Shown here one piece after another: positions 16,441 through 42,666 of a DNA stretch of 64,000 nucleotides (the first letter of the stretch is position 1; the number at the start of each line of letters is the position of its first letter). Made by a program: the position numbers and the translations under genes. Origin of the DNA: Sulfurimonas crateris (GTDB lineage Bacteria > Campylobacterota > Campylobacteria > Campylobacterales > Sulfurimonadaceae). The notes under the pieces were generated by a model. It searched no databases. It was not told where the DNA came from and worked only from the letters and a program-made list of their open reading frames with translations. The DNA lies in the NCBI GenBank assembly GCA_945883795.1, contig CAMCYC010000006.1, positions 1-64,000 of the forward strand. The letters are read 5' to 3'.

Positions 16441-19400
16441 TTATTTAAAATAAGCCCAAAAACTTTCATATCTTTTTACTTCTGTAATTCTCGGCATTGT
16501 TGCATCTACAACACTATTGTTTGTAGGTGCATACACATTCCACATATCATCTCTTAAAAGCATTATATAGACTAAACTTTTATTTTGAGCATTCAATGTT
16601 GTTGCTATTTGTTGCACTGTTTGTGTCTTATTGTTTGACATCAATATCCAACCTTCTGGAAAAAGGTTTTTGAAATTATTAGTAATTTCACTATCTTCAT
16701 CAAATGGTAAAGAAATCTTTGTCTCTGCTTTTGTTTTTACCAAAATTCCTTCAAGTGGATTAATTGTTGAAAACTTTTGTATGAGAGAAGCTGGATTTCT
16801 AGCGGTATTGTTATCCCAAAATATCCAATTTTTTCCAAATTTAAATACTTTTTTTATATCGTTATTTATACCAAAAATTGATTCAAGCGTATTGTTTTGG
16901 TCACAAGTTGCTTGTATTTGTTGAATCTCTTCATTACATAAAGTTTTTGCAGATGGCAATGAGATATAAGTGTAACCATTATTGAGTGGTATTTCTATTT
17001 TTGGGTTTGATGAAATAGAATGGTATAACTCGTCTTTTGCTGTTTTATTGAGGAAAATATAACTGTATATATCTCCTGCAGCTTTATAACTTGCGGTTTT
17101 TATTACTCCATTATCTACAACAAAGGCACTATCTTGTGGATAACTATTATTAGTGAGAGTTAGAATAAGAGTATCATAACCGTCTACTGTTTTTCTTTGC
17201 CATGAGCCGATGTTGTAATCAAGGATAGTAGTATTCACATCTACTTCTAGGAGATTACCGCTGAGATTTCCTGAGCCTAGTACTACTATTTTTGATTCAT
17301 CTTCATTTCGTAGTAAACCATACGAAAAATTATTTGCTATAGCATCATTGATAAAGGAATCCATGGAGTTATAAGTTGCTCCATTGACGAAAAATGTATC
17401 TTCTATTGAAAGTTCTTCACTCAAATATTTGACATACATTTTTTGAGATGTTGCATTTATATCTGTAAAGTTAAACACCATGTTGTTATTACTAAAGAGT
17501 GCTGTTGTTGCTGTATTATTTAACGGTGTTTCAAACTTCACTGTTTGAGTGAGATTTGATACTGGCGTTATATCTGTTGTATGTGTTACAACCCCTGCTG
17601 TATCTTTTATAATATTTTCTTCAGTGATTACATTTGATACTATAGAGTATCTTTCATACTCTACAACTTGAGAGATGCTTTCATTATTATACTCATTCCA
17701 TGTATTCAAACTATAAAGGTTATTTGTCACATTAAGTGAACTTATTCCATCATAAATGGATTGTTCCTCTTTAGAAGTTATAGTGTGTATCTTTGAATTT
17801 TCTAGTACAACATTAAATTTTTGAGTTGTCGTATTATTACTCTCATCTGTTACTTGGATAAAAAATGAAGTTACACCTTCTATTGCACTATTTGGTGTGA
17901 TAGTTAGTGTAATTGGAGTTGTATTGTACGATTCATAACTAATAATGCCACTAGGTGAATATGTATAACTTACAAGGCTATTTGTTTCATTTATTATCTC
18001 TAATCTCAAATCTCCTTGTGTATCATCGTCTATGTTAAACGATACGGTAAATGACTCAGCATTGATTGGTTTTACCCTATCATAAATTGTTGAGATTGTT
18101 GGTGGTGTAATATCACTTATGTCCTCTATCCAATTTTCTGCCAAAGCATCAATTGTTATCCCACTACTAGTTATAGCTGTTTTAAAAGCATCACTTCCAT
18201 CATTCACTGTATGCAGTTTATGGTCGTTAAAGTTGTACCATGAAGAGATATTTCCAGTTGTATCATTAGTATCTACACGAACAGAAAAATTTTGGTTAAT
18301 ACTATAAATATAAGCACTCAAATTATTATCACCATTTGATAAATTATTTGAATTTGGAATACTTAAATTTTCACTATTGCCATCAACCCCTACAAGTTGG
18401 ATATTTGTAATAGTATGTTCAGATAGAGCAACATTTATAAAATTTACAGAAACAACTTTGGATAATATGCTTTTTGGAAAAGGATTACTATTAGTCGTAC
18501 TATCACCAAATTGCCCAACACTATTATTTCCCCAAGCCCAAATTGTTTCATCAGTCTTAAGAGCTACTGTATATTTATATCCAGCACTTACTGTTTTCCA
18601 ATTAATGTCACTACCTATTTGTGTTGGGACATATGTATCAGTAGTTGTTCCATCTCCAAGCTCTCCATCACTATTATTTCCCCAAGCCCAAAGTGTTCCA
18701 TCATTTTTTATCGCTAGTCTATGATAATATCCTGCGGTTATACTTTTCCAATTGATATCAGTTCCAATTTGCGTTGGTACTATTGTAGAATAAGTTCCAT
18801 TCCCAACTGCTATGCCATAACCATTATAACCCCATGCCCAAAGAGTTCCATTGTTTTTTATGGCTATTGTATAATAATACCCAGCTTCTACACTCTTCCA
18901 ATTCGTATCAGTTCCAATTTGAGTTGGTATATATTTACTCGTATAAGTTCCATCTCCAAGTTGTCCATAATCATTATAACCCCAAGTCCAAAGTGTTCCA
19001 TCACTTTTTATCCCTATTGCATGGGAATGCCCCGCATTAATAGTTGTCCATGTTGTATCACTTTGTATTTGTGTTGGCACTAATTTAGTTGTAGTAGTTC
19101 CATCACCAAGTTGACCATAACCATTATAACCCCATGCCCAAAGAGTTCCATTATTTTTGAGAGCTATCGTAAAATGTTCTCCCACGACTACTCTTGCCCA
19201 ATTTGTATCTGTTCCCACTTTTGTTGGGACTAATTTATTTGTATGAGTTGCATCTCCAAGTTGTCCATGACTATTATCTCCCCATCCCCAAAGTGTTCCA
19301 TCTTTTTTTATTGCCATATTATGATAATATCCAAAATTCACACTTGACCAATTTGTATCAGTTCCTATTTGTGTTGGGACATATTTATCAGTAGTTGTCC

Positions 19401-22400
19401 CATCTCCAAGTTGTCCATAAGCATTATATCCCCATGCCCAAAGTGTACCGTTTGATTGAATCCATGCACTAGATTCACCACCTGCAACTAGAGTGCTTGT
19501 ATTTGTATCAAGTGTTAAAATTATCGGAGTATTTATCCAATTTTCTGAAGATGCATCAATTGTAAAAGAGTTTGTATCTGTTGTGATAGTTTTGAAGAAA
19601 TCTGCACTAGAAGCTCTAATTTGGTAAAGTTTAGAATCTGTAAAGTTATACCACCAAATACTATTATCAGATAACACTAATTTAACGGCATACGACTGAT
19701 TATAACTTACCGTTGTTGTAGTTGCAGAGAGTAATGTTTCTGCACCAGTTGAATCTATTATAAATATTTTACTTATCCAATTATCTACTGGTGCATTTGT
19801 TATTTGTACTGTCAGAATGACACTATCTTCATGTTCTACAGCACCAATATCACAACCATCTGTTTGTGTTCTGCTAATTCCTAGCTCATCAACACTTATA
19901 ATATTTCCAAGTAAATCAAGACAATTTGATTTATTTACAATAAAACTACTGAGAACTACAGGATGAACAGGCAATGTACTCATTGTATCTAAACCATAAA
20001 TAACCTCATCACTTACATTGACATCTTCTATTCCATTCACATCAGTTGCATAGAAGTTTGCATCTATTGAACCAATAATATTATTGCCATAAGAATGAAG
20101 ATTTCCGTAAATATTTGAAGAGTTTTTTGTAACAATTGAATTGTTCATGTTAAGCGTTGCTTGAGAATTATAAATAGCTCCACCATTTGTTGCAATGTTA
20201 TATGCAATAGTAGAATGGGAAATATTTGCATCTCCAGAATTAACAAAAATACCACCACCTGCAGAGGCACTATTTGTAGAGATTGTAGAGTTCAAAAGAC
20301 TAAGTGAGCCATCACTATAAATTGCTCCACCACTAGAATTAACAAAAATACCACTGCCTGAAATTGTAGAGTTCAAAACACTAAGTGAAGTACTATCTGT
20401 TGCATTATTATCATGAAAAGTAGAACTTATTATTTCTAAAGATGCTGAGGTGTTGTTATAAATTGCTCCACCATTTGCGTAATTTACCAAGTTATGTCTA
20501 AAGAGAGATTTCTCAATCCTCAAAGTACCATTATTAGAGATTGCTCCACCATGAGTTTGTGGTGCACCATAACCATGCTGAAAAATCAAGCCTCTTAGTT
20601 TTACCGTTGCACCATTTTCTATAATAAAGAGTTGATGGCTATTATCTCCATTTAAAACAACACTGCCATACAAAGTTGCCTCTATTGTAATATTTTTATC
20701 AATCGTAATAGTTCGATTTAAATCTATAGTTCCAGATGAAGAGATTTTAATTGTACCACCATCACTCACATTACTCAAACCATTCTCCAACTCTTCTTGA
20801 GAAATACCAATTTCAATCAAAGAGGAGATGTTTGTATCTTCAGCATAAATGATAAATTTTGGTACATAATTACTAAAATCTCCAAGCTGTCCATAACTAT
20901 TATTTCCCCAAGCCCATAAGGTTGCATTACTCTTGATTGCTACCGTATGATATTCTCCCGCAGTTACACTTGCCCAAGAAGTATCTATTCCTATTTGCGT
21001 TGGGATATTTTTATTTGTCGTACTGCCATCTCCAAGTTGTCCATAATAGTTATTTCCCCATGCCCACAATGTTCCATCATTCTTGATTGCTACTGTATGG
21101 TAGACTCCAGCAGTTGCACTTTTCCAAGAACTATCTGTTCCTATTTGCATTGGAACATTTTTATTTGTACTACTAGTAGTTCCATCTCCAAGTTGTCCAT
21201 AACTATTATTTCCCCAAGCCCACAATGTGCTATCATTTTTGATTGCTACTGTATGATATTCTCCTGCAGTGACACTTTTCCAAGAAGTATCTGTTCCTAT
21301 TTGCGTTGGGAGATATTTTGTAGTAGTAGTTCCATCTCCAAGTTGTCCATAAGCATTATATCCGCAAGCCCACAATGTTCCATCATTCTTGATTGCTACT
21401 GTATGATACACTCCCGCAGTTACACTTTTCCAAGAACTATCTGTTCCTATTTGCGTTGGAACATTTTTATTGGTCGTAGTGCCATCTCCAAGTTCTCCAT
21501 AACTATTATTTCCCCAAGCCCACAATATTCCATTATTTTTGATTGCTACTGTATGAAAATATCCTGCAGTTACACTTTCCCAAGAAGTATCTATTCCTAT
21601 TTGCGTTGGGACATTTTTATTTGTCGTAGTGCCATCGCCAAGTTCTCCATAATAGTTATTTCCCCATGCCCACAATGTTCCATCATTCTTGATTGCTACT
21701 GTATGATACACTCCTGTAGTGACACTTTTCCAAGAAGTATCTGTTCCTATTTGGGTTGGGAGATATTTTGTAGTAGTAGTGCCATCGCCAAGTTGTCCAT
21801 AATAGTTATATCCCCAAGCCCACAATGTTCCATCATTTTTGATTGCTACTGTATGATACACTCCCGCAGTTACGCTTTTCCAAAAAGTATTTGTTCCTAT
21901 TTGCGTTGGGAAATTTTTATTGGTCGTAGTAGTAGTTCCATTGCCAAGCTGTCCATAATCATTTTTTCCCCAAGTATACAAAGAGATGGAAGTCCCATTA
22001 TTTTTGAGTGCCAAGGCATGAGAATGTCCAGCATCTATACTTGACCAATTTATATCGCTTCCTATTTGCGTAGGGATAGATTTATCATTTGTTGTTCCAT
22101 CTCCAAGCTGTCCATAATTATTATTTCCCCAAGACCAAAGAGTTTCATCAGTTTTGATAGCTATAGTATGCCAATCTCCAGCAGTTATGCTTAACCAATG
22201 TGTATCATTTCCCATTTGTGTAGGTACAGATTTACTATCAGTTGTGCCATCCCCAAGCTGTCCAGACCAATTAGCTCCCCAACCCCAAAGAGTTCCATTA
22301 CTTTTTATCGCTACCGTATAATCGTAACCAACGGTTATACTTGACCAACTTGTATCACTCCCTATTTGAGTAGGTATAGATTTGGAAATATTTGTTCCAT

Positions 22401-23022
22401 CTCCAAGTTCTTTATTCTCATTATTTCCCCAAGCCCAAAGCGTTCCATTGGTTTTTATCGCTACTGTATGACTTGAACCTGCTGCTATATTTGACCAACT
22501 TGTATCACTTCCTATTTGTGTAGGTATAGATTTATAGTTAGTTGTTCCATCTCCAAGTTGTCCATAATAGTTATCCCCCCAAGTCCAAAGAGTTCCATCA
22601 CTTTTTATTGCTACCGTATAATAATATCCAGCATTGATACTTTTCCAATTTGTATCAGTTCCTATTTGTGTAGGTACAAGTTTAGCTGTGATTGTTCCAT
22701 CTCCAAGTTGTCCAGACTCATTATCTCCCCAAGTCCAAAGCGTTCCATCGTGCTTTATTGCTACCGCATGAACACTTCCAGTAGTGATGCTTTTCCAATT
22801 TGTATCACTCCCTATTTGTGTAGGTACAAGTTTAGGTGTGATTGTTCCATCTCCAAGTTGACCAGAATTATTATCTCCCCATGCCCAAAGCGTGCCATTT
22901 GGCTCAATCCATACAGAAAAATTATCCCCCCCTGAGATAGTATTGGCAGAGAGTGTTGTTACAAAAAAATGCAGTGCAAAAACGAAAATATAAAATAGTT
23001 TTTTTAGATGATTATTTTTCAT
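16441..23022 (-). CDS. Giant secreted RCC1-repeat protein (2193 aa) with internal beta-helix region and C-terminal aromatic module
   Basis: Signal peptide; 21 copies of GTLWAWGNNSYGQLGDGTTTNK.VPTQIGTDTSWKSVTAG.YHTVAIKNDG; overlaps upstream FecR gene by ATGA. Confidence 0.93.
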   Translation of the reverse strand: MKNNHLKKLFYIFVFALHFFVTTLSANTISGGDNFSVWIEPNGTLWAWGDNNSGQLGDGTITPKLVPTQIGSDTNWKSITTGSVHAVAIKHDGTLWTWGDNESGQLGDGTITAKLVPTQIGTDTNWKSINAGYYYTVAIKSDGTLWTWGDNYYGQLGDGTTNYKSIPTQIGSDTSWSNIAAGSSHTVAIKTNGTLWAWGNNENKELGDGTNISKSIPTQIGSDTSWSSITVGYDYTVAIKSNGTLWGWGANWSGQLGDGTTDSKSVPTQMGNDTHWLSITAGDWHTIAIKTDETLWSWGNNNYGQLGDGTTNDKSIPTQIGSDINWSSIDAGHSHALALKNNGTSISLYTWGKNDYGQLGNGTTTTTNKNFPTQIGTNTFWKSVTAGVYHTVAIKNDGTLWAWGYNYYGQLGDGTTTTKYLPTQIGTDTSWKSVTTGVYHTVAIKNDGTLWAWGNNYYGELGDGTTTNKNVPTQIGIDTSWESVTAGYFHTVAIKNNGILWAWGNNSYGELGDGTTTNKNVPTQIGTDSSWKSVTAGVYHTVAIKNDGTLWACGYNAYGQLGDGTTTTKYLPTQIGTDTSWKSVTAGEYHTVAIKNDSTLWAWGNNSYGQLGDGTTSSTNKNVPMQIGTDSSWKSATAGVYHTVAIKNDGTLWAWGNNYYGQLGDGSTTNKNIPTQIGIDTSWASVTAGEYHTVAIKSNATLWAWGNNSYGQLGDFSNYVPKFIIYAEDTNISSLIEIGISQEELENGLSNVSDGGTIKISSSGTIDLNRTITIDKNITIEATLYGSVVLNGDNSHQLFIIENGATVKLRGLIFQHGYGAPQTHGGAISNNGTLRIEKSLFRHNLVNYANGGAIYNNTSASLEIISSTFHDNNATDSTSLSVLNSTISGSGIFVNSSGGAIYSDGSLSLLNSTISTNSASAGGGIFVNSGDANISHSTIAYNIATNGGAIYNSQATLNMNNSIVTKNSSNIYGNLHSYGNNIIGSIDANFYATDVNGIEDVNVSDEVIYGLDTMSTLPVHPVVLSSFIVNKSNCLDLLGNIISVDELGISRTQTDGCDIGAVEHEDSVILTVQITNAPVDNWISKIFIIDSTGAETLLSATTTTVSYNQSYAVKLVLSDNSIWWYNFTDSKLYQIRASSADFFKTITTDTNSFTIDASSENWINTPIILTLDTNTSTLVAGGESSAWIQSNGTLWAWGYNAYGQLGDGTTTDKYVPTQIGTDTNWSSVNFGYYHNMAIKKDGTLWGWGDNSHGQLGDATHTNKLVPTKVGTDTNWARVVVGEHFTIALKNNGTLWAWGYNGYGQLGDGTTTTKLVPTQIQSDTTWTTINAGHSHAIGIKSDGTLWTWGYNDYGQLGDGTYTSKYIPTQIGTDTNWKSVEAGYYYTIAIKNNGTLWAWGYNGYGIAVGNGTYSTIVPTQIGTDINWKSITAGYYHRLAIKNDGTLWAWGNNSDGELGDGTTTDTYVPTQIGSDINWKTVSAGYKYTVALKTDETIWAWGNNSVGQFGDSTTNSNPFPKSILSKVVSVNFINVALSEHTITNIQLVGVDGNSENLSIPNSNNLSNGDNNLSAYIYSINQNFSVRVDTNDTTGNISSWYNFNDHKLHTVNDGSDAFKTAITSSGITIDALAENWIEDISDITPPTISTIYDRVKPINAESFTVSFNIDDDTQGDLRLEIINETNSLVSYTYSPSGIISYESYNTTPITLTITPNSAIEGVTSFFIQVTDESNNTTTQKFNVVLENSKIHTITSKEEQSIYDGISSLNVTNNLYSLNTWNEYNNESISQVVEYERYSIVSNVITEENIIKDTAGVVTHTTDITPVSNLTQTVKFETPLNNTATTALFSNNNMVFNFTDINATSQKMYVKYLSEELSIEDTFFVNGATYNSMDSFINDAIANNFSYGLLRNEDESKIVVLGSGNLSGNLLEVDVNTTILDYNIGSWQRKTVDGYDTLILTLTNNSYPQDSAFVVDNGVIKTASYKAAGDIYSYIFLNKTAKDELYHSISSNPKIEIPLNNGYTYISLPSAKTLCNEEIQQIQATCDQNNTLESIFGINNDIKKVFKFGKNWIFWDNNTARNPASLIQKFSTINPLEGILVKTKAETKISLPFDEDSEITNNFKNLFPEGWILMSNNKTQTVQQIATTLNAQNKSLVYIMLLRDDMWNVYAPTNNSVVDATMPRITEVKRYESFWAYFK
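18460..19490 (-). repeat. RCC1 repeat array 2: 7 units of about 50 aa/150 bp
   Basis: Counted in the ORF translation; approximate borders. Confidence 0.88.
20865..22935 (-). repeat. RCC1 repeat array 1: 14 units of about 50 aa/150 bp, central units nearly identical in DNA
   Basis: Counted in the ORF translation; repeated ccatctccaagttgtccataatagttatttcccca... blocks. Confidence 0.9.
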
Positions 23023-33863: not shown

Positions 33864-34790
33864 ATGAATTTAAAAAGAGTACAAAAGTTACTTATTTTAG
33901 TTGCGGTGTTATTTGTGTCATTAGAGGCAGATGAGAATATTTTAGTGTACAAAATAGAAAATAAAAATCATACAATTTCAGCGCAAACAGTTGCAAATGG
34001 ATTGGAAAAAAATGGTTATGCAGTTGCTAAAAATCAGGACATGAACGCTCCTTATCAAAAACAATTTGGGAATACTCTTTTTGAGAGTTACAATTTGATG
34101 TCAGTATACCATCCAGATTTTGCAAAAAAGCTAGTCTCTAACCACGATAAATCAGGGATGTTTGTCCCTTTTTCTATTGCTGTATATCAGTATAAAAATG
34201 ATGCTAATCTTCATTTAGCACTTTTAAGCGGTGTTGGACAAGAAAAAATTTTAGGGTTCAAAGAAAAACTTTTTGAGCAGTTAGAAACGCTCAATAAAAC
34301 AACACTTCAAAAGATTTTACCAAATATTCAACAAGAGTCTTTGAGTGATGCAACCACAGATACAAAAAATAAACTTTATACCACTTACACACTTGATGTA
34401 GATGATGAAGATGCGGATGAAAATTACAATCAAATGATGATGGTGATGGAGGGCAACATGGAGATGGGCGGTTTTGTTGTTGCTAATTACCTTAATTTTA
34501 ACCAAAAATTACAAGAGAATGATATTAATGACTATATTTTTTATCATTCATATTCATTATGTAAATTAAAAATCATTTATGAACTCTCAAAAAAAACTCC
34601 CCAAGCAGGAGCTTTTGCGCCTTGTACGATGGTGATTTATCATAAAAAAGGGAGTAATAAAACAAATATTGTTTCACTGAATATTAATAGTCTTATCTCC
34701 ATGCTATCGCTCAAAGATGTAGATTTGTTAAAAATGCTTGATGACACACAAGCAGACATGACAACAATTATTAACGATTCAATAGAATAA
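33864..34790 (+). CDS. Tandem DUF302-like periplasmic protein
   Basis: Two internally related halves, each with ...FxPxxxxVYxxK-like segment (GMFVPFSIAVYQYKN; GAFAPCTMVIYHKKG). Confidence 0.6.
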   Translation: MNLKRVQKLLILVAVLFVSLEADENILVYKIENKNHTISAQTVANGLEKNGYAVAKNQDMNAPYQKQFGNTLFESYNLMSVYHPDFAKKLVSNHDKSGMFVPFSIAVYQYKNDANLHLALLSGVGQEKILGFKEKLFEQLETLNKTTLQKILPNIQQESLSDATTDTKNKLYTTYTLDVDDEDADENYNQMMMVMEGNMEMGGFVVANYLNFNQKLQENDINDYIFYHSYSLCKLKIIYELSKKTPQAGAFAPCTMVIYHKKGSNKTNIVSLNINSLISMLSLKDVDLLKMLDDTQADMTTIINDSIE

Positions 34791-34802
34791 GGGGAGTAGA
34801 TT

Positions 34803-35264
34803 ATGAAAATTTTACTTTTACTTTTTTCTTTCTATATATTTGTTAATGCACAAGAAGCAGTAAAAAAGGTAGTTTTTGATTTAACAACTAGCGATATAAA
34901 AACCTTTGAAAAAAAAGTGCTCTCTGGAATAGTAAATCAAAAAACTCACTATGAAAACAAACTCGAAGAGCTAGAAGTAGCTGTGATTATCCATGGAGAT
35001 GCGTATAAATTTTTTATAAAAGATTTATCTATCTCAGCGTTTAAAAATGAGAGTGAACTCGTAAAAGAACAAAATGATTTAAGTAAAAGAATTCATACAA
35101 TGTCAGATACTTATAATGTTGAATTTTTTATCTGTGAAGCTGGAATGAAAAACTTAAAAATTTCAAAAGAAAATATATACAAATTTTTAAAAATTGTACC
35201 AAATGCAACTATTGGCCTAATTGATAAACAACAAGACGGATATGCTTATATACCAATTAGGTAA
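34803..35264 (+). CDS. DsrE-like periplasmic protein
   Basis: Signal peptide; EELEVAVIIHGDAYKFFIKDL...FFICEAGMKNLKI. Confidence 0.6.
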   Translation: MKILLLLFSFYIFVNAQEAVKKVVFDLTTSDIKTFEKKVLSGIVNQKTHYENKLEELEVAVIIHGDAYKFFIKDLSISAFKNESELVKEQNDLSKRIHTMSDTYNVEFFICEAGMKNLKISKENIYKFLKIVPNATIGLIDKQQDGYAYIPIR

Positions 35265-37038: not shown

Positions 37039-39042
37039 TTAGAATTTAATATCTAAATTTGTATAGACATATCTTCCTAATTCATTCATAAGCATGGTCT
37101 CAGTTCCTGCACCCAAAAGAACTAAATCTACATAAGTGTTTGATTGTGCATAAGTTTTATCAAACATATTATTTACACCTAAAGTAAAGTCAAGATTTTT
37201 GTTTATTTCATGTTTTACTTTCATGTTAAGAATTGCCCATGCACCCAACTCTTGCTCACCATTATCAGAATCATACGCACTCCATTTTTCTGAGGCAACT
37301 GTTTCAATTGTAGCAATAGAGTTGTTCATATATTCATAATTAAGAGCTAAATTTCCACGAAGTGGTGCTATATCGGCTAAATCTTTATCTGTTTGTCCAG
37401 CAAGTGCCTCATCTTTTTGACCTTTTTTATAAGATATTCCCATGTCTACTGTAATATCATCTGTTGCATAAATCAATGCACTTAACTCTGTTCCATAAAT
37501 TGTTGCATCAATATTTTGAAATTTAAAAGTTGTTGGAGTGAGTTTTTGTAAATAGATATAATCTTGTAACATAGAATAAAACCCTTTGATTTTTACTTTC
37601 ATTAAATCATTTTTGAGTTCATATCCTAAATCAATCTCTTGATTTGTTGTTTGGTTTAAATTTGGATTGCTTGAAGCATTCATATATAATTCTCTAGCAT
37701 CAGGAACACGAGATGCTTGTCCTAATCCTAGAAATATTTTATTTTCTTGAGAGAGATTATAGGAAGTAACTATATTTGCATTGAAAGCGTTGTAATCTTT
37801 TGCTTTATAGGTTGTTGTTGCATTATTATCTGGTGTAATATCTGTGGAATCATATCTTGCACCAACTGTTACATCCAAATCACCAAACGATTTATCAAGT
37901 TTTGCAAATACTGCTTTGTTGGTTGTCTCTGTATGGGGTAAGCTTATTTGAGCTGGTCTCGTTATGCCACTGATAGTATTGGTCATAAAACTCTCACCCT
38001 GCCAAGTTCTTCTACTTCCATCAAGACCAACTAACAAAGAATGCCCTTCAATGTCAAAACTATTTTTGAGTTTTAAACCTTGCATACTTGTTTGGAGTTG
38101 GTTTGTCATATACATTTGCATATTGTTCATCTTAGGATTTGCCGTAATTGCTGTGATTCGATTACTTGTATCCATCGGATGGTCAACATCAGAGTAGTAA
38201 TATTGTAAATTTATATCTTTATAAATATCAGAGATATTTTTTACATCATAAGCAACACTATAAATATTTGAAACATCATATGCTGCATCCATTGGAGTTC
38301 CTGGATATAAAACATCATCACTTCTATTTTTTGTAGCACTGAGTTGTAACTCTTGGTCGTCAGTAACGCTTACATATATTTTAGCCATCACACTTTTTTT
38401 CTTATAGGCTTGCATATCCTCTTTTGAGGCTTGGTATTGGTTAGGAAGTGGTGCTTTGTTTTTTGTTTGTTGTGCAAGCGTATCGCCGTTACCGTCTTTA
38501 TATTGGTCACTTGATTCGGTTGAACCACTCATTAAAACACGCACAGTATCATTACCGCCACTTACAGTTGCTCCAACTTTTGTGTAATTCCAGCTTCCAA
38601 AACCAAGGTTCACCTCACCATGGAAATCTTTTGTTGGTTTTTTAGTTGTAATTTTAAGACCACCACTCATAGTCCCAAAATTTGTGACATCATAAGGACC
38701 TTCAGTTACTTCTACCTCATCAATTTGATTTGCTAAAATATGAGAAATTGGTGGGTCCATTCTGTTTGGACATGCACCAAAAACTTTGCTTCCATCCACC
38801 TCTACAGAAATATTATCTCTTTTTTGTCCACGGATAAATACATCGTTAGCGATTCCACTACGACGACTCATGTCGATACTCGGTACACTAGCGTTGAGTG
38901 CTGTTGCTAAATCAGCGGAGAGTTTTGCATTTTGGCTTACTTCTGTTATAAGAGTTGACTCTACATTAATAGGAGCGAGTATAACATCAGTTGCATAAAG
39001 TGATGCAATAGTGATAAACGATAATGGAATAATTTTTTTCAT
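37039..39042 (-). CDS. TonB-dependent outer-membrane receptor, OprC/NosA-like (putative copper)
   Basis: Plug domain VFIRGQKRDNISVEVDGSKVFGACPNRMDPP...VEVTEGPYDVTNFGTMSGGLKI; CPNRM and DHPMD motifs; better start at MKKIIPLSF (39042). Confidence 0.85.
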   Translation of the reverse strand: MKKIIPLSFITIASLYATDVILAPINVESTLITEVSQNAKLSADLATALNASVPSIDMSRRSGIANDVFIRGQKRDNISVEVDGSKVFGACPNRMDPPISHILANQIDEVEVTEGPYDVTNFGTMSGGLKITTKKPTKDFHGEVNLGFGSWNYTKVGATVSGGNDTVRVLMSGSTESSDQYKDGNGDTLAQQTKNKAPLPNQYQASKEDMQAYKKKSVMAKIYVSVTDDQELQLSATKNRSDDVLYPGTPMDAAYDVSNIYSVAYDVKNISDIYKDINLQYYYSDVDHPMDTSNRITAITANPKMNNMQMYMTNQLQTSMQGLKLKNSFDIEGHSLLVGLDGSRRTWQGESFMTNTISGITRPAQISLPHTETTNKAVFAKLDKSFGDLDVTVGARYDSTDITPDNNATTTYKAKDYNAFNANIVTSYNLSQENKIFLGLGQASRVPDARELYMNASSNPNLNQTTNQEIDLGYELKNDLMKVKIKGFYSMLQDYIYLQKLTPTTFKFQNIDATIYGTELSALIYATDDITVDMGISYKKGQKDEALAGQTDKDLADIAPLRGNLALNYEYMNNSIATIETVASEKWSAYDSDNGEQELGAWAILNMKVKHEINKNLDFTLGVNNMFDKTYAQSNTYVDLVLLGAGTETMLMNELGRYVYTNLDIKF

Positions 39043-39098
39043 GTAATAAACCTTCGATAAAATTACCAAATCATATAGATTTTTTGTTACAAAAGTGT

Positions 39099-39500
39099 TC
39101 AATCATCCAAGAATTCATCATCATCTTCCTGAATTTTATACTTTGGAAAAATAGTTGCTATTGCTTTTGCCAGTTTGTCTTCATTAATGGGTTTTAAAAT
39201 ATACCCTTTTGCACCAGCTTTGAGTGCGGAGACAACTAAATCTTCTTGTCCATGAGAAGTCACCATGATAATAGGAACTTTTTTGTCAAATTGTTTTATC
39301 TTTGCAACGGCAGTTATCCCATCCATATCTGGCATTGTGATATCCATAGTTATTAAATCAGGTTTTAACTCTTTGCAATCTTCTACTGCTTCTGCCCCTG
39401 TTTTTGCTTCTCGTATAACTTTATGCCCTAAATGTGCTAGGTATTTATGTACATTTTTTCTAATAATTAACGAATCATCTACAATCAAAACATTTAACAT
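39099..39500 (-). CDS. Single-domain CheY-like response regulator
   Basis: NVLIVDDSLIIRKN...LITMDITMPDMDGITAV...KGYILKPIN. Confidence 0.93.
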   Translation of the reverse strand: MLNVLIVDDSLIIRKNVHKYLAHLGHKVIREAKTGAEAVEDCKELKPDLITMDITMPDMDGITAVAKIKQFDKKVPIIMVTSHGQEDLVVSALKAGAKGYILKPINEDKLAKAIATIFPKYKIQEDDDEFLDD

Positions 39501-39501
39501 T

Positions 39502-40029
39502 TTATAATTCCTTTAGTTCTAAATCATCTATAAATAAATCTTTTGTTCCAATAACTGTTATCAATAAATCACCAAAATCAGTTACTATTGCACTCAATGC
39601 TATTTTTGAATTTTTATGTTTTATAAGAGATTTGGCTTCTTGAATAAGGATTGGAGGACTTATACTTAATACAGTATCATCCTTTGGATTAATTAAAGCA
39701 TTTCCGATGATAATATTTATCACTTCACAAGCAACACTCTCTCGTACTTCATCAAACTCCTCTAGAGCAACTGTCTCCCCTTCTAAAAAAGATTCCATGA
39801 GTTTATTAAGTAATTTATCATCATAACTCATGCTAATAAGTACCTGAATACTACCTCCAGTGCTAATCATAACTGTGTTCTTTTTGAGTTGAACTTTTTG
39901 CATGAAAGAGATTTGTGCATCTTGAGAAATAATGTGAACTCCCATATTTTCGCTCAAAAAACTTAGAGTTCTTTGTACTATTGGTAATAAAATATCTTTT
40001 TCACATTCACTACATTTTGTTTTTTGCAT
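39502..40029 (-). CDS. CheX-like CheY phosphatase
   Basis: ESVACEVINIIIGNAL (ExxN) in CheX-like fold; N-terminal CxxC. Confidence 0.7.
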   Translation of the reverse strand: MQKTKCSECEKDILLPIVQRTLSFLSENMGVHIISQDAQISFMQKVQLKKNTVMISTGGSIQVLISMSYDDKLLNKLMESFLEGETVALEEFDEVRESVACEVINIIIGNALINPKDDTVLSISPPILIQEAKSLIKHKNSKIALSAIVTDFGDLLITVIGTKDLFIDDLELKEL

Positions 40030-40041
40030 CTTTGCCCTCCT

Positions 40042-42666
40042 TTATTGTGGTATTGTAAATATAAAAGTAGTTCCACTATTTTTTTGTGTATGAATTGTGA
40101 TTTTCCCACCAACTTTTTCAATCTCATGAGCAACTGCATTCATTCCAACACCACGACCAGATATATCGGAAATTTCATCTTTTGTACTAAATTGTTTATT
40201 AAAAATAAGATGATAAATATAATCATCATCTAAAAACTCTATTTTATTTTGAGTAATTATATTAAGCTCTAGTGCTTTTGCCAAAACTTTTTGCTTATCA
40301 ATTCCTGCTCCATCATCTTCAATACTAATCTCAATAAAATTATCTTTTTGCTTAAAACTACAAGAAACAGTTCCAAATTCATCTTTATCTTTTGCAACTC
40401 TTATCTGAGGTTCTTCTATCCCATGGTCGAGACTATTTTTAAAAACATGGATAAGTGATTTGATAATTTGTCTGTTTTTTTCATGGATTATAATATCCCC
40501 ATCTCCAACTATCTCAAGAGGATAAATCTTTTTTTCTAATCTTTGGGCTAATTGTGTTACCAAATGAGTATATGGTTTGAGTAAATCCAAGAGTTTAAGA
40601 CTTGTTAAACTTTCTAATTGGAACAATATCTCTTTTACTTGAGGTGTTTGAGAAGACTCAGATTGAAACAGTAGCGAGATACTTTTTTGTAACTGTACGA
40701 TTTTAGAAGATGGGATTTTGAGAATATTATGAAGATTTAAAAACTCTTCTCCCAAAATTTTTGTAATTGTGCTGAGTTCTTCATTAAAAGTTGTCTGAAA
40801 ATCTTGTGTTTTTAGAAATAGTAATAGACTCTCATTTGTATCTGTATTCTCTTGTATAATCAATGCAATATCATTTTCAAGTTCATGTAAAAAAGTAACG
40901 ATACTATTCATATACATTTGTAAAAATGCACCTTTGAAAGTGTGAATGATAATGTATATCTCATTTGCGTTTTCTAAGAAACTTTTTTCTGGTTCAATAT
41001 ATTTTTCCAAAGAGGAGATAAAAGCTGTATAATCTTTTTTTATCTCATAAAAAGTTTCACTTTCACTCACAATTTCCACTATCATTTTCAAAGTTTCTTG
41101 CTCTTTTAACATTTTTTTTTCAAGTTTTTTTTGTGCTGAAATATTGGTTAAAATAAGCATGAACTTATCGTTTTGGATTATTTTATACTCAAGCTTTAAT
41201 GCTCTTTTATGTAAAATAATTTCCTGTGGCAATAAAGATAAAAGAGATTTTTTAATCGTGATATCATCCACTTGAGCTGTGTCTAAAAGAGTATTTTTAA
41301 AAAATTTTTTTTCTTGCTCGGTTATAAAAAGGAGTTCAGTTATATCTTTTTGCTCAATTACCTCACCTAAAAGTTTATTACACTCTCTGGAGTGTTCTTC
41401 ATCTATGATACAGTCATGACCAAAAGATAAAAAACCTTGCCGTGCATTGTTTAAAAGGTCTCTTACTTTTTTAGTTTTGAGCGTAACTTTTTCTTCAAGA
41501 TTTGCATTGAGGTCTCGTATCTCTTGATGGAGTTTAGCACTTACTGCAATATTTTCTTTGAGTGATATAGCCATAGTTCCAAACTCATCACCACTATTTA
41601 TTTCCAAATTTTGCGTGTAATCTTTTTTACCTTGAAGAAATAAAAAGAAATCTGACAACCCATTTTCAAACTTTTTAAGTGGTTGTATCACAATCTTTTT
41701 AATGACAATCATAATCACCATACTAATAATAAAACTCATAAAAACAAGACTAATAAGCGCTATATAAATTAAAGTCTCTGCACCATCTATAGAACTATTT
41801 ACCACAGATAAAGGTTTTGCTAAAAGAGTAATTCCTAGTTTTTTATTTTGAAAATCATAGATAATAGTATATGTATAAAAATACTTTGAACTAAGAAGAT
41901 AACCTTTTTGAAATAAGTGTTCTAAATTCAAATTTTTGGCATCTTCTAAAAATTTTTGATTTAAATATTGTTGGGAAATGATGTAATTTTGAAATTTTAC
42001 ATCATCATTAAATGAAAACTCATCATGTGTTTTTATTTGCTCATTAACATTCCAATCCATTAAAAGTAAAAAACCTTCATCTGTTTTATCAAATGCTTTG
42101 ACCACTGAGTTTATCCCTTGAATAAACTCTAAAGAACCGATATGAACTCCTTTTTGGTTTGTAATAGGTGTGATTGCTCTTAAAAGTAACCCTTCTCGTC
42201 CCGCTTCAAAGGTTGTAATTGGTTGAAGGGTTTTATTTACAGAAACGACAGCGGTGCGAAATGAACTTAAATCATCTCCGTATTTATCCAATTTCCAATT
42301 TCTTAAAAATGATTTATTCTCTTTAGTGTGCAAGTGGATTTTGATATTTTGAAACTTTGTGTAGTTTTTCATTTTAGTTGAAATATCTTTGAGTGATTCT
42401 ATCGCTAAAACCCTTTTATTCTGACTAAGAGCAATTTTTATCCGTTCATCATTTGCAATAGATATTGCATTTGTGATACCAACACTCATTTTAGAAGCAA
42501 TTTTATCCTCTGCACTATTAATGAGTTCATTTTTTGTATTTGTATAAACATCGCTTTTAATTTGTTGTGCGTACCAAAACAAAATAAAAAAAGCGATAAT
42601 CAGAGACACAAGTGAAGCACTTATAACAGCAAGACTTAATTTTGTGCTAACGGATGTAAATTTCAT
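40042..42666 (-). CDS. Membrane CheA-like hybrid sensor: extracytoplasmic sensor, HAMP, Hpt (HTFKG), CheA-type HATPase; no CheW-like domain seen
   Basis: TM segments; IIHTFKGAFLQ; VFKNSLDHGIEEPQIR; DISGRGVGMNAVAHEIEKVGGKI. Confidence 0.85.
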   Translation of the reverse strand: MKFTSVSTKLSLAVISASLVSLIIAFFILFWYAQQIKSDVYTNTKNELINSAEDKIASKMSVGITNAISIANDERIKIALSQNKRVLAIESLKDISTKMKNYTKFQNIKIHLHTKENKSFLRNWKLDKYGDDLSSFRTAVVSVNKTLQPITTFEAGREGLLLRAITPITNQKGVHIGSLEFIQGINSVVKAFDKTDEGFLLLMDWNVNEQIKTHDEFSFNDDVKFQNYIISQQYLNQKFLEDAKNLNLEHLFQKGYLLSSKYFYTYTIIYDFQNKKLGITLLAKPLSVVNSSIDGAETLIYIALISLVFMSFIISMVIMIVIKKIVIQPLKKFENGLSDFFLFLQGKKDYTQNLEINSGDEFGTMAISLKENIAVSAKLHQEIRDLNANLEEKVTLKTKKVRDLLNNARQGFLSFGHDCIIDEEHSRECNKLLGEVIEQKDITELLFITEQEKKFFKNTLLDTAQVDDITIKKSLLSLLPQEIILHKRALKLEYKIIQNDKFMLILTNISAQKKLEKKMLKEQETLKMIVEIVSESETFYEIKKDYTAFISSLEKYIEPEKSFLENANEIYIIIHTFKGAFLQMYMNSIVTFLHELENDIALIIQENTDTNESLLLFLKTQDFQTTFNEELSTITKILGEEFLNLHNILKIPSSKIVQLQKSISLLFQSESSQTPQVKEILFQLESLTSLKLLDLLKPYTHLVTQLAQRLEKKIYPLEIVGDGDIIIHEKNRQIIKSLIHVFKNSLDHGIEEPQIRVAKDKDEFGTVSCSFKQKDNFIEISIEDDGAGIDKQKVLAKALELNIITQNKIEFLDDDYIYHLIFNKQFSTKDEISDISGRGVGMNAVAHEIEKVGGKITIHTQKNSGTTFIFTIPQ

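Follow-up and report, generated by a model that had tools for sequence, protein, structure and literature searches.

An OprC-type TonB-dependent receptor of a Sulfurimonas-type bacterium, very probably for copper uptake, and the operator it shares with other copper genes

The minus-strand gene at positions 37039-39042 of the window (the whole 64,000-nucleotide stretch of DNA analysed here) very probably encodes an outer-membrane copper uptake protein that is a distant relative of OprC. The explanation that we favour, with a probability of roughly 85%, is that its product would be an OprC-type TonB-dependent importer of ionic copper, expressed from a dedicated copper-scarcity promoter and supplying copper to oxidases. 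The host is a Sulfurimonas-type member of the Campylobacterota, with a genome of 2.41 Mb that is 99.85% complete.

A sequence-divergent member of the OprC kind

The open reading frame ends with a stop codon at 37039-37041. The program-made list of reading frames begins it at a TTG at 39102, a choice that makes it overlap with the upstream gene. The start conserved among relatives is instead the ATG at 39042, and it yields a protein of 667 aa with a signal peptide, a plug and a 22-stranded barrel, in which both the Pfam Plug and the barrel domains were matched. In a phmmer search, the best PDB sequence matches were six OprC variants (6fok, E = 6.6e-33), with siderophore receptors trailing at 5e-7. 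An AlphaFold2 model built from 28 relatives (pLDDT 82.5, pTM 0.83) comprises a plug and 22 barrel strands, and when it was compared with the PDB by Foldseek, ranks 1-28 were all taken by OprC chains (E from 7e-39 to 1e-34, TM approximately 0.8), followed by PhuR at 1e-31. The assignment to the TonB receptors made in the initial annotation is therefore borne out by the plug, the 22-strand barrel and the best sequence and fold matches, all of which are to OprC.

The TonB-copper equivalog TIGR01778 was the top NCBIfam model, but its score of 210.6 bits did not reach the cut-off of 472.45. Thus, as judged by sequence, the receptor is a divergent member of the already known OprC kind, though its copper site is complete. 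With OprC of P. aeruginosa (6fok, 6z8q-6z9y; PMC8610252) it has in common the fold, the plug/barrel layout, the CxxxM + HxM ligands, the GACPNRMD motif and the inner-track Met286 position. It differs from OprC in an identity of only about 20%, in its promoter element and in falling under the TIGR01778 cut-off, and the methionine loop, the Met138/139/374 cluster and the remaining track methionines of OprC are not conserved.

An invariant copper site and a variable methionine loop

The copper ligands of OprC are Cys143 and Met147 in the plug and His323 and Met325 in the barrel (PMC8610252). By alignment, the motif CPNRM (38758-38772, minus strand) places C91 and M95 on the two plug ligands, and HPM (38173-38181, minus strand) places H288 and M290 on the two barrel ligands, where they sit in strand E274-291 of the AlphaFold2 model. 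Local alignment showed GACPNRMD to be identical, letter for letter, to the OprC copper motif and paired DHPMD with the DHIMD of OprC. C91 is the sole cysteine of the window receptor, and a single match to the DNA pattern for CPNRMD was found in the window, where shuffles predicted 0. The CxxxM + HxM site that had been proposed is thus present at the positions named, and the alignment to OprC suggested as a check brings its Cys/Met/His/Met residues onto the four ligands. All four columns are invariant across 141 aligned relatives and OprC. Of these relatives, 60 came from a partly motif-keyed scan and 81 from motif-blind whole-genome protein searches, and the latter retained every ligand residue (81/81).

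In 37 of the 81 unselected relatives (e.g., L003, L052 and L055), another cysteine precedes the ligand cysteine at a distance of three residues (CGACPNRM), at the position corresponding to residue 88 of the window protein, which is F. This extra cysteine could be an added ligand or form a disulfide.

The Met-rich stretch reported after DHPMD was also found as described: the loop MNNMQMYMTNQLQTSM spans residues 305-320 (38083-38130, minus strand) and pairs with the SSMMPMPM loop of OprC in the local alignment. The proposal of a methionine track, on the other hand, held in part. M251 (38290-38292, minus strand) occupies by alignment the position of OprC Met286, an Ag(I) ligand of the inner methionine track (PMC8610252), and is invariant in 81 of 81 unselected relatives, and M312 aligns with OprC Met343, a column with methionine in 34 of the same 81. 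However, the loop varies widely among relatives in both length and methionine content, and the alignment of relatives showed neither the other OprC track positions nor the Met138/139/374 cluster to be conserved, which makes the Met-rich loop mostly particular to the window protein and a few relatives. The constant core in these alignments is C91, M95, H288, M290 and M251. Retention of the OprC ligands at about 20% identity, without retention of the methionine loop, separates the essential from the dispensable part of the mechanism.

Distribution and gene neighbourhoods

Of the 151 family genomes, 121 contain an orthologue (97 of the 117 good genomes), and it also occurs in many further families of the phylum. 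Two sampled families (f2 and f3), probably host-associated, gave weak paralogue matches only. Most family members carry oprC between an alr/agmatine-deiminase-like pair and ispG/dnaB-like genes (named from translations). The window gene is placed elsewhere, behind an operon for a dCache_3 sensor kinase, CheX and a receiver-only regulator (39099-42666, minus strand), and no copper gene adjoins it within the window. The kinase-CheX-receiver genes were considered as a dedicated sensor for oprC and rejected, as oprC has its own promoter and these genes are not beside it in relatives with readable context; they thus probably do not belong to the system.

The genes adjoining oprC in other families point to copper. 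The order tonB-oprC-nosZ-x-nosD is found in four genomes of a single genus, and oprC-ccoN-ccoO, oprC-DsbD_2-..-ccoN-ccoO (two genomes) and oprC-exbB-exbD-tonB (two genomes) were also observed. Copies from the sulfur-oxidising Gammaproteobacteria Sedimenticola and Thiodiazotropha (loci L145, L152, L154-L157, L159 and L167) nest inside the Campylobacterota in a quick tree, which makes horizontal transfer likely. Two genomes of family f7, which is probably Arcobacteraceae, carry tandem oprC duplicates (L173 and L174). Elsewhere in the window, a plus-strand tandem of DUF302 and DsrE family genes lies close to oprC (33864-35264), and a very large open reading frame of 2193 aa occupies 16441-23022 on the minus strand.

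A conserved operator upstream of oprC

Upstream of oprC, relatives carry a direct repeat, TTAACAC-N4-(T/G)TAACAC, with an 11-bp period (the TTAACACTTTTGTAACACT repeat), followed by a TATAAT-like box. The corresponding operator in the window is GAACACTTTTGTAACA (39085-39100, minus strand), a direct repeat of the same period, and a putative -10 element, TATGAT, was placed downstream of it (39070-39075, minus strand) by the position of the TATAAT-like box in relatives. The first bases of this operator are overlapped by the stop codon of the receiver-only regulator gene, and it lies 42 bp before the ATG, indicating that oprC kept its own promoter at its new place.

The operator precedes most Campylobacterota oprC genes, that of the window included, usually at a distance of about 40-50 bp from the start. 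With up to three mismatches, the 16-mer was found in 92 of 139 oprC upstream regions, and its reversed form in 2 of them; in a random-window control, 61 of 2780 windows of oprC loci matched, some of which include the real site. Weaker yet recognisable forms occur in most other Campylobacterota families, and none was seen at the gammaproteobacterial copies. In one genome (G497, 82% complete), the operator stays before ispG at the usual place of oprC with no receptor reading frame after it (L214); this genome has possibly lost oprC and left the promoter behind.

An operator shared with other copper genes

In a scan of 41 genomes from the genus that tolerated no more than one mismatch, the 16-mer occurred approximately 80 times versus 4 for the reversed control. 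When 50 of these sites were read, approximately 17 lay before oprC, 6 before tonB, 5 before other TonB receptors, 2 before NosL genes and 1 before MbnP-MbnH. In the host genome itself, a degenerate operator pattern gave 27 matches, equal to the 27 of its reversed control, and therefore only a position-filtered subset (intergenic, at the conserved distance) is meaningful. Only four of the intergenic matches had a start codon 41-45 bp further on, namely those of oprC, two nosL genes and mbnPH, under a filter that was taken from the oprC distance in relatives and was not blind, as it was applied while the gene identities were visible. The MbnP and MbnH assignments exceed their cut-offs (204 bits against 140 and 452 bits against 363, respectively).

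The operator is thus common to oprC and other copper genes, and oprC apparently belongs to a copper regulon not described in the literature searched. That search, largely without subscription papers, returned no OprC, NosA or TonB-copper receptor from Sulfurimonas-type bacteria and no such operator.

Two further loci carry the element. The mbnPH operon of the host genome (C115:1-3969, L236) includes a third gene, of unknown family and 372 aa, under the common operator. In five genomes, the operator and a TATAAT-like box point into a gap without open reading frames beside a chorismate-mutase-like gene (L215, L222, L223, L230 and L238; in the host genome, C22:5318, L235), and this gap possibly encodes a copper-regulated small RNA.

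Direct-repeat operators of the PhoB/OmpR type consist of two 7-bp half-sites with an 11-bp period beside a -10 box. The oprC operator differs from these in its half-site, (T/G)TAACAC, and in that its associated genes are copper genes. Because its 11-bp direct repeat adjoins a -10 box, the regulator that binds it is probably a response regulator of the OmpR/PhoB type. Regulators of this type adjoin oprC in a few relatives, and none could be tied to the TAACAC repeat. The response regulator at L207 was rejected as the operator binder; a somewhat different repeat, of the CTAACACTTTGCTAACA type, belongs to its family, and the operator match there is probably a paralogous box. On the whole, the evidence leans towards a copper-acquisition regulon common to environmental Campylobacterota, in which an OmpR/PhoB-like regulator would act through TTAACAC-N4-KTAACAC on the OprC-type importer, TonB, NosL, MbnP/MbnH and further TonB receptors.

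The membership of this regulon also bears on the form in which copper is taken up, as a receptor with an OprC site might import a copper chelate (a metallophore or small-molecule complex) instead of free ions. The presence of the operator before other TonB receptors and before MbnP/MbnH, families named after methanobactin systems, would agree with such a role, as would the lack of conservation of the Met-rich loop in relatives. There is also a precedent in CrtA, a copper TBDT family that imports chelated Cu(II) and was reported as a sequence cluster apart from OprC (PMC12914433); CrtA and MbnT have TonB-dependent copper import over the outer membrane in common with the receptor proposed here, but theirs is chelated copper. 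However, all four naked-copper ligands of OprC are invariant, and methanobactin-type synthesis genes were not seen next to any of the loci examined. We therefore consider chelate import improbable and favour ionic copper as the substrate.

Likely copper clients and the question of denitrification

The initial annotation had linked the receptor to copper enzymes of denitrification. Searches with the nosZ (TIGR04246) and nirK (TIGR02376) models yielded no convincing gene in the nearly complete host genome, and a weak NosZ match on its contig C17 was rejected, as it is cytochrome oxidase subunit II. The nosZ model was also run on 397 genomes of the phylum. In a sample of 52 genomes from the family, oprC was present in 27 of the 29 without nosZ and in 22 of the 23 with it (Fisher p = 1), and in another family nosZ is widespread without a full-length oprC orthologue. 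A role in denitrification was accordingly rejected for this genome, as no convincing nosZ or nirK was found and the presence of oprC is independent of nosZ in the family.

The same results weigh on a role like that of NosA of Pseudomonas stutzeri, which was reported as an OprC orthologue with an identical ligand motif (PMC8610252) and was linked to nitrous-oxide reductase, unlike the receptor of this genome, in which no nosZ was found. Supply of copper to that enzyme would account for the gene order in one genus of another family, where the orthologue stands immediately before nosZ and nosD and is flanked by tonB at its opposite end, and for the NosL genes that carry the operator of oprC. Nevertheless, with nosZ and oprC distributed as described, we regard a NosA-like role as very unlikely in general, and for the host genome it is refuted unless nosZ was missed.

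The likely copper clients in this organism are instead the caa3 and cbb3 oxidases. Contig C17 (L190) carries, in one cluster, SCO-like, caa3-type oxidase, CtaB and ccoNOP-like genes (assigned partly by reading of translations), in which the caa3-type oxidase is preceded by the SCO-like gene and the cbb3 oxidase adjoins. A NorB-like gene, whose product is not a copper enzyme, is also present in the genome.

Matches to broad TonB siderophore and haem models, below their cut-offs, would agree with import of another soft metal or of an Fe complex through an inherited but repurposed CxxxM-HxM site. Such import is hardly credible, since the ligands are invariant, the operator is common to MbnP and NosL genes and the gene is linked to nosZ and ccoNO in relatives.

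Proposed mechanism and implications

Sequence, fold, ligand invariance, gene neighbourhoods and the promoter element together support the proposal of an outer-membrane importer of copper, and we infer the following course of uptake. Copper outside the cell would be captured with the help of surface methionines, among which M251 alone is constant, and would then be locked between the plug (C91 and M95) and the barrel wall (H288 and M290). The pull of TonB on the plug may release it inward, where it would supply periplasmic and inner-membrane copper enzymes, of which the caa3 and cbb3 oxidases are the most probable here. Expression would be driven from the dedicated promoter, with the TAACAC direct repeat bound by a regulator, probably of the OmpR/PhoB type. 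This candidate regulator would also control mbnPH and nosL in the host and tonB in relatives, and the regulon is probably a response to copper scarcity.

Campylobacterota depend on copper oxidases, and many of them reduce N2O. In a study of C. jejuni, copper import in that organism was stated as unknown (PMC8267372). A conserved OprC-type importer, together with an operator that names its co-regulated genes, provides a model, open to direct test, of how copper is acquired and how this is regulated, and if the proposed regulon is true, OprC would be the missing copper entry point in much of the Campylobacterota.
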